This document shows positions 53,426 to 53,548 of a stretch of DNA of 64,000 nucleotides, piece by piece. The stretch is from Acidithrix ferrooxidans (GTDB taxonomy: Bacteria; Actinomycetota; Acidimicrobiia; Acidimicrobiales; Acidimicrobiaceae). A program made the position numbers and the translations under genes. Position 1 is the first letter of the stretch; each line of letters opens with the position of its first letter. Location of the stretch: positions 1 through 64,000 of the forward strand of contig NZ_JXYS01000027.1 of NCBI RefSeq assembly GCF_000949295.1, read 5' to 3'. Under the pieces are notes generated by a model. The model saw only the letters and a list, made by a program, of their open reading frames with translations, made no database searches and was not told the DNA's origin.

Positions 53426-53548
53426 ATGGCACAGATAATGTTTTCTATTGGTCTAGGAGTGGTAAGCCTCAGCGTTGTTGGCTTTGCTCTCTTTGTAGTA
53501 TCCACCACTATGTGGGGAGACAAGTGGATTCGGAGGTCCCCAAAATGA
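53426..53548 (+). CDS. 40-aa single-pass membrane peptide upstream of sdhC
   Basis: ATG at 53426, stop TGA at 53546-53548. The product has an N-terminal 'MAQIMFSIGLG', one strong hydrophobic helix (VVSLSVVGFALFVVSTTM) and a basic end 'KWIRRSPK' that should stay in the cytoplasm. Its stop overlaps the sdhC ATG (ATGA), and the sdhC SD (ggagg, 53532-53536) lies within its last codons, so the two are translationally coupled. This is strong support that it is real despite its size. No family known. It might be a small succinate dehydrogenase subunit or assembly peptide (inference). Confidence 0.7.
   Translation: MAQIMFSIGLGVVSLSVVGFALFVVSTTMWGDKWIRRSPK

Follow-up and report, generated by a model that had tools for sequence, protein, structure and literature searches.

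Does the short interval between serS and sdhC in Acidithrix ferrooxidans encode a protein and, if so, does that protein serve complex II? The stretch of DNA analysed here (64,000 nucleotides, hereafter the window) carries on its plus strand the seryl-tRNA synthetase gene serS (52060-53373) and, downstream, the anchor gene sdhC (53545-53922). Between them lies a frame for which the original prediction, made from the letters of the window, gave 40 residues from an ATG at 53426 to a TGA ending at 53548 (translation MAQIMFSIGLGVVSLSVVGFALFVVSTTMWGDKWIRRSPK, then the stop). The frame itself stood, being kept in 30 of 30 genomes that have this sdhC and selected at the codon level (see below), but the proposed ATG probably did not. 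A GTG two codons, or 6 nt, upstream is common to most relatives, while the codon at 53426 is ATG in no relative except G030; the ATG was dropped in favour of the GTG. The true gene is thus probably a 42-codon frame running from GTG 53420 to TGA 53548 on the plus strand, 46 nt downstream of serS. Its product, with GTG read as methionine, would be MNMAQIMFSIGLGVVSLSVVGFALFVVSTTMWGDKWIRRSPK, a 4.66-kDa peptide that contains neither His nor Cys. An ATG start is found in G044 and a few outgroup loci, and G040 has no ATG, GTG or TTG near the conserved N-terminus.

No Pfam or NCBIfam family reached a shown cut-off for the peptide. Two known identities were considered and rejected: a SecE-type NCBIfam family matched one member of a 16-member peptide set (A2) at 1.1e-5 but scored the window protein at only 12.6 bits (cut-off 106), and PsbN matched seven of the 16 members weakly (best 0.0025). 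Both were set aside because we take them to reflect the likeness of short helices. In addition, a search of open-licence papers by title and abstract start returned no report on Acidimicrobiia that describes a short gene upstream of sdhC.

The distribution of the peptide follows that of one type of SdhC. We compared 60 genomes, namely our own and those of 59 relatives. The window SdhC was matched in 30 of them and the peptide in the identical 30, with E-values from 5.2e-22 to 1.9e-8; in the other 30 the peptide was not found (best match E 0.115). In all 30 genomes with this sdhC, the peptide gene stands directly before it on the same strand. Loss of the frame upstream of sdhC in close relatives had been named beforehand as the observation that would speak against the gene; the frame was present in 29 of the 29 relatives with this sdhC. 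The peptide is not merely a neighbour of serS, since its link to sdhC persists in four loci that lack serS within about 1.5 kb upstream (G049, G044, G554 and G262).

A wider search of 395 genomes of the class, in which at most 18 candidates per genome were scored so that misses are possible, gave 50 genomes over the TIGR02970 (SdhC) cut-off and 14 with the peptide at E <= 1e-4; seven weaker matches (E 0.001-0.01) were left uncounted. In 12 of the 14, all of them among the 50 over the SdhC cut-off, the peptide gene precedes sdhC. It lies elsewhere in G256, a genome that has SdhC, and no SdhC was found with it in G405, an assembly that is 70% complete. G260 holds a weak candidate (6.3e-5) in a different neighbourhood. 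No peptide was detected at E <= 0.01 in 37 of the 50 genomes with SdhC over cut-off, hence SdhC in this broad family does not require it. Thirty-five of these 37 belong to one genus with assemblies of 0.6-1.1 Mb, and a looser search of five of the 35 gave no convincing match.

We dropped the idea that the peptides of G256, G260 and G405 are moved copies travelling with SdhC, given that they share a different neighbourhood and that neither SdhC nor SdhB was found in G405. They are single-helix peptides with an S-x-R-W-x-x-R tail (locus L277, 1489-1629, for G256; L278, 1351-1632, for G405, both reverse-complemented; L279, 1471-1626, for G260). Their neighbours, as named by eye, include a flavin reductase, a zinc alcohol dehydrogenase and/or a further oxidoreductase, and these peptides may form a small-membrane-protein family of their own.

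A scan of genome contigs returned 26 loci, all titled Actinomycetota or one of its subgroups, including Ferrithrix thermotolerans DSM 19514 (locus L168; Acidimicrobiaceae, class Acidimicrobiia) and a Ferrimicrobium. A profile search of 198 genomes of the phylum gave matches at E <= 0.05 in 25, two of them members of the peptide family; 26 further places had E-values of 0.001 to 0.05, of which eight were read and all taken as chance, so that no convincing relative outside the class emerged among the places read. Four of the genomes searched are of family f53, which we take for mycobacterial relatives; their SdhC and 6lum_C share 74-83% identity, and no convincing relative of the peptide was found in them. 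Finally, the region upstream of sdhC in other actinobacteria was inspected for short hydrophobic frames, in sets of 30 loci (including one family member, G017), 7 loci (plus strand only) and 19 loci (two of them, L081 and L090, anchored on sdhD instead); outside the family, no frame resembled the peptide.

In a tree of 61 SdhC sequences the 32 with the peptide before them make up one side of a single branch (support 100/99), recovered in 100% of 200 bootstrap trees; the rows, 32 with and 29 without the peptide, were hand-picked and the root is a midpoint root only. Within the same family as Acidithrix, genus g6 (G016, G022, G027 and G034) shows neither this SdhC nor the peptide. Its SdhB is of a different type, with E-values of 3e-39 to 2e-38 as compared to 4e-75 or lower in the 14 other family genomes tested. 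These four family genomes, with a different SdhB and none of the Sdh2 type, suggest that complex II was replaced in g6. Five incomplete family genomes (G005, G006, G025, G029 and G032; 65-84% complete) have the Sdh2-type SdhB and yielded no sdhC or peptide, an absence that we put down to missing contigs.

The codons of the frame bear the mark of selection on a protein. Across 46 close pairs (nucleotide identity of at least 78%, not identical) drawn from 38 distinct sequences, pooled pN/pS was 0.114 in frame versus 1.63 and 5.46 in the shifted frames. Of 703 pairs, 127 had a dS from 0.05 to 1.2; their median dN/dS was 0.26, and again 0.26 when the last four codons compared were excluded. Some distant pairs had values of up to 0.93, the highest seen. 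Seven residues, Q5, F8, L12, F22, V26, T30 and W36, are invariant in 34 distinct cores. AlphaFold2 predicts one helix spanning residues 3-38 (mean pLDDT 86.4), as originally proposed, and conservation tracks one face of it (moment at 100 degrees, p = 0.005, 0.5% of 20000 permutations being as high). Conservation of the Arg-Arg tail may be partly a matter of nucleotides, because its codons coincide with the Shine-Dalgarno sequence of sdhC. Overall, it is well supported that the frame is a real, selected gene for a small membrane protein, carried in the sdhCD operon by one clade of Acidimicrobiia; the operon gene claimed at the outset is borne out by its retention before sdhC and by selection at the protein level.

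The junction with sdhC reads as first described. The TGA of the small gene overlaps the ATG of sdhC (53545) as ATGA, and a Shine-Dalgarno-like GGAGG (53532-53536, plus strand) lies within the last codons of the small gene, on the Arg-Arg codons, 8 nt before that ATG; similar sequences are present at the junctions of relatives. With the sdhC start taken as the one nearest the overlap, 33 of the 39 distinct loci have a 4-nt overlap of the RTGA type, although two of these read TTGA. Five loci have gaps instead, of 0, 1, 4, 4 and 33 nt, and no sdhC start was found in G023. The 33-nt gap belongs to G262, where the peptide is still recognisable.

Upstream, a -10-like box (TAGTTT, 53407-53412, plus strand) ends 7 nt before the GTG and is a predicted leaderless promoter. 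A putative -35-like TTGAGC, noted by eye, lies 17 nt before it (53384-53389, plus strand) and occurs at equal spacing in G003, G010, G002, G011 and G004. Of 28 distinct loci assigned to the family, 26 have a TANNNT box that ends 7 nt (20 of them) or 8 nt (the other six) upstream of the start; in G017 and G023, the remaining two, a TAGCGT was noted by eye 7-8 nt ahead of an in-frame ATG located further upstream. No Shine-Dalgarno-like motif precedes the small-gene start in 27 of the same 28 loci. From the position of the TANNNT box, a leaderless mRNA that opens with the peptide gene is probable. For leaderless translation in mycobacteria, a 5'-terminal ATG or GTG is described as both necessary and sufficient (PMC4633059).

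Which enzyme would the peptide serve? The 125-residue SdhC matches Pfam Sdh_cyt (5.5e-16) and NCBIfam TIGR02970 (5.5e-19), both over cut-off, and the downstream sdhD (53924-54334, plus strand; 136 residues) matches Sdh_cyt at 1.1e-16, also over cut-off. Their best PDB matches are chains C (6lum_C, E 1.5e-21) and D (6lum_D, E 5.3e-20) of 6LUM, the Sdh2 enzyme of M. smegmatis; over the stretch compared, the window SdhC and 6lum_C share 36% identity. In an alignment with E. coli SdhC, the residue three positions before the His of the His-Arg pair is Ser in E. coli, which we take to be part of the quinone site, Phe in the window and Trp in 6LUM; replacement of this Ser by Phe or Trp is a hint only. 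The four heme-ligand His given for the mycobacterial enzyme (PMC7447783) align with candidate ligands H34 and H73 of the window SdhC (C47/H34, C87/H73) and H47 and H88 of SdhD (D65/H47, D107/H88). In our genome, the window sdhC and sdhD are the only TIGR02970 matches. The single SdhB over cut-off is encoded on another contig, C21, where it adjoins sdhA (by eye) with no anchor gene; hence the anchors are split from sdhAB. A single SdhB over cut-off was likewise found in 12 of 12 genomes tested (ours and 11 others).

Some features around these genes were recorded as well. On contig C21 (L165, 7112-9951), which differs from that of sdhCD, sdhA and sdhB are followed by a 116-residue SCP2-like frame, judged by eye. 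Directly after sdhD, positions 54472-56217 of the window encode a 582-residue protein of about five near-identical tandem repeats (PIVGMA..DGKGYWLVASDGGIFTFGDA) that has no Pfam match over cut-off. A short-period tandem repeat at 50835-51054 reads DRLSN/DRLSS or DNRSL in overlapping frames on two strands.

The closest parallel to the peptide comes from 6LUM itself. This structure contains SdhF, a 3-kDa single-helix protein located near SdhC helix I; it contacts helices I and V as well as SdhB and blocks the QP site (PMC7447783). Homologues of SdhF are described there as mainly mycobacterial, and SdhF is reported as a possible third membrane subunit of class A complex II (PMC10238741). Both SdhF and our peptide are very small single-helix proteins, and the partner of the peptide would be a diheme SdhC/SdhD of the same type, as judged from the best matches in 6LUM. 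They differ in size (42 residues and 4.66 kDa versus 3 kDa) and in gene position, the peptide gene lying directly before sdhC whereas no such frame was seen there at the f53 loci examined. Profiles of the peptide family (A1 and A2) searched against PDB chains returned neither SdhF nor a convincing relative, in a chain set whose inclusion of SdhF is unconfirmed. From its position, the selection on it and the parallel with 6LUM, we infer that the peptide acts as a subunit or an assembly factor, and on balance we think that it probably belongs to the diheme Sdh2-type succinate:quinone oxidoreductase as a small accessory subunit, similar to SdhF in function. The likeness in function is a hypothesis, and the peptide is best read as a new subunit family.

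In such a role, the peptide would be translated first, from the presumed leaderless mRNA. Ribosomes finishing it would then start on sdhC through the GGAGG/ATGA junction, so that the peptide and the anchors would be made side by side. The helix would insert with its short N-terminus outside and its basic WGxRWxRR tail inside, as expected from the positive-inside rule. Its conserved face (Q5, F8, L12, V15, V19, F22, V26 and T30) may pack on SdhC, which would place the two tryptophans at the cytoplasmic surface of the membrane, close to SdhB and to the opening of the proximal quinone site. The peptide could thereby stabilise the anchor and perhaps close the proximal site, leaving quinone to react distally.

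The same genetic data would be expected from an assembly or heme-insertion factor that holds SdhC and SdhD during insertion or heme loading and is absent from the finished enzyme, and synthesis just before SdhC would suit such a chaperone. However, the window peptide, devoid of His and Cys, offers no obvious heme ligand, and in the closest enzyme of solved structure the comparable small protein resides in the complex as a subunit (PMC7447783), so that we hold this role to be unlikely. SdhE, a soluble FAD assembly factor, resembles the peptide in being a small protein that serves complex II, but it acts on SdhA, whereas the peptide is a membrane helix next to sdhC. SdhE is mentioned in PMC7447783. 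The peptide could also belong to another system, for instance that of the divergent transporter and heme A synthase-like genes, or be a regulator, and merely share the promoter of sdhC. The look-alikes of G256, G260 and G405, found in another neighbourhood and not before sdhC, would fit such a case; they are, however, more distant and may be another family, and the linkage to sdhC is kept in close relatives and through the loss of serS. We regard this explanation as quite doubtful.

Another account dispenses with the peptide altogether: only translation of the short frame would matter, loading ribosomes onto sdhC in cis. Ribosome loading is one role proposed for the leaderless, RTGA-coupled small ORFs of mycobacteria (PMC4633059), and our locus shares their architecture, with a predicted mRNA 5' end at a GTG behind a leaderless-type box and a TGA that overlaps the next start. 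The coupled class of that report is nevertheless described as unconserved in sequence, whereas here the sequence of the peptide is itself kept across genera and families; the same report also describes conserved small proteins. A cis-acting coupled ORF would be marked by a peptide sequence free of selection, and here selection acts on the protein over the helix (pN/pS 0.11 in frame, above 1 in the other frames). Moreover, the invariant Q5, F8, L12, F22, V26, T30 and W36 are not needed for coupling, and the G262 peptide remains recognisable despite its gap to sdhC. A purely cis-acting leader is therefore, in our view, very unlikely.

The accessory subunit is our preferred reading, and one comparison gave it no support. 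In the 33 of 39 distinct loci that have all four proteins, distances between peptides were uncorrelated with those between SdhC sequences beyond what SerS accounts for (partial r -0.06 for SdhC, 0.16 for SdhD), as compared to a partial r of 0.56 between SdhC and SdhD.

Complex II is usually described as having four subunits, and one mycobacterial structure adds a fifth that consists of a single helix (PMC7447783). A second candidate, with no sequence relation to the first detected and fixed before sdhC throughout a clade, would suggest that such helices recur in diheme enzymes and are easily missed, given a short gene with a GTG start and no separate ribosome-binding site. More tentatively, the peptide may represent an undescribed family of fifth complex II subunits, confined to one acidimicrobial SdhC clade, unrelated in sequence to SdhF and independently recruited to the same job, the closing of the proximal quinone site in a diheme enzyme of the menaquinone type. 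If true, this would be a case of convergent evolution of an accessory helix, and would offer a handle on why diheme enzymes need their proximal site shut.
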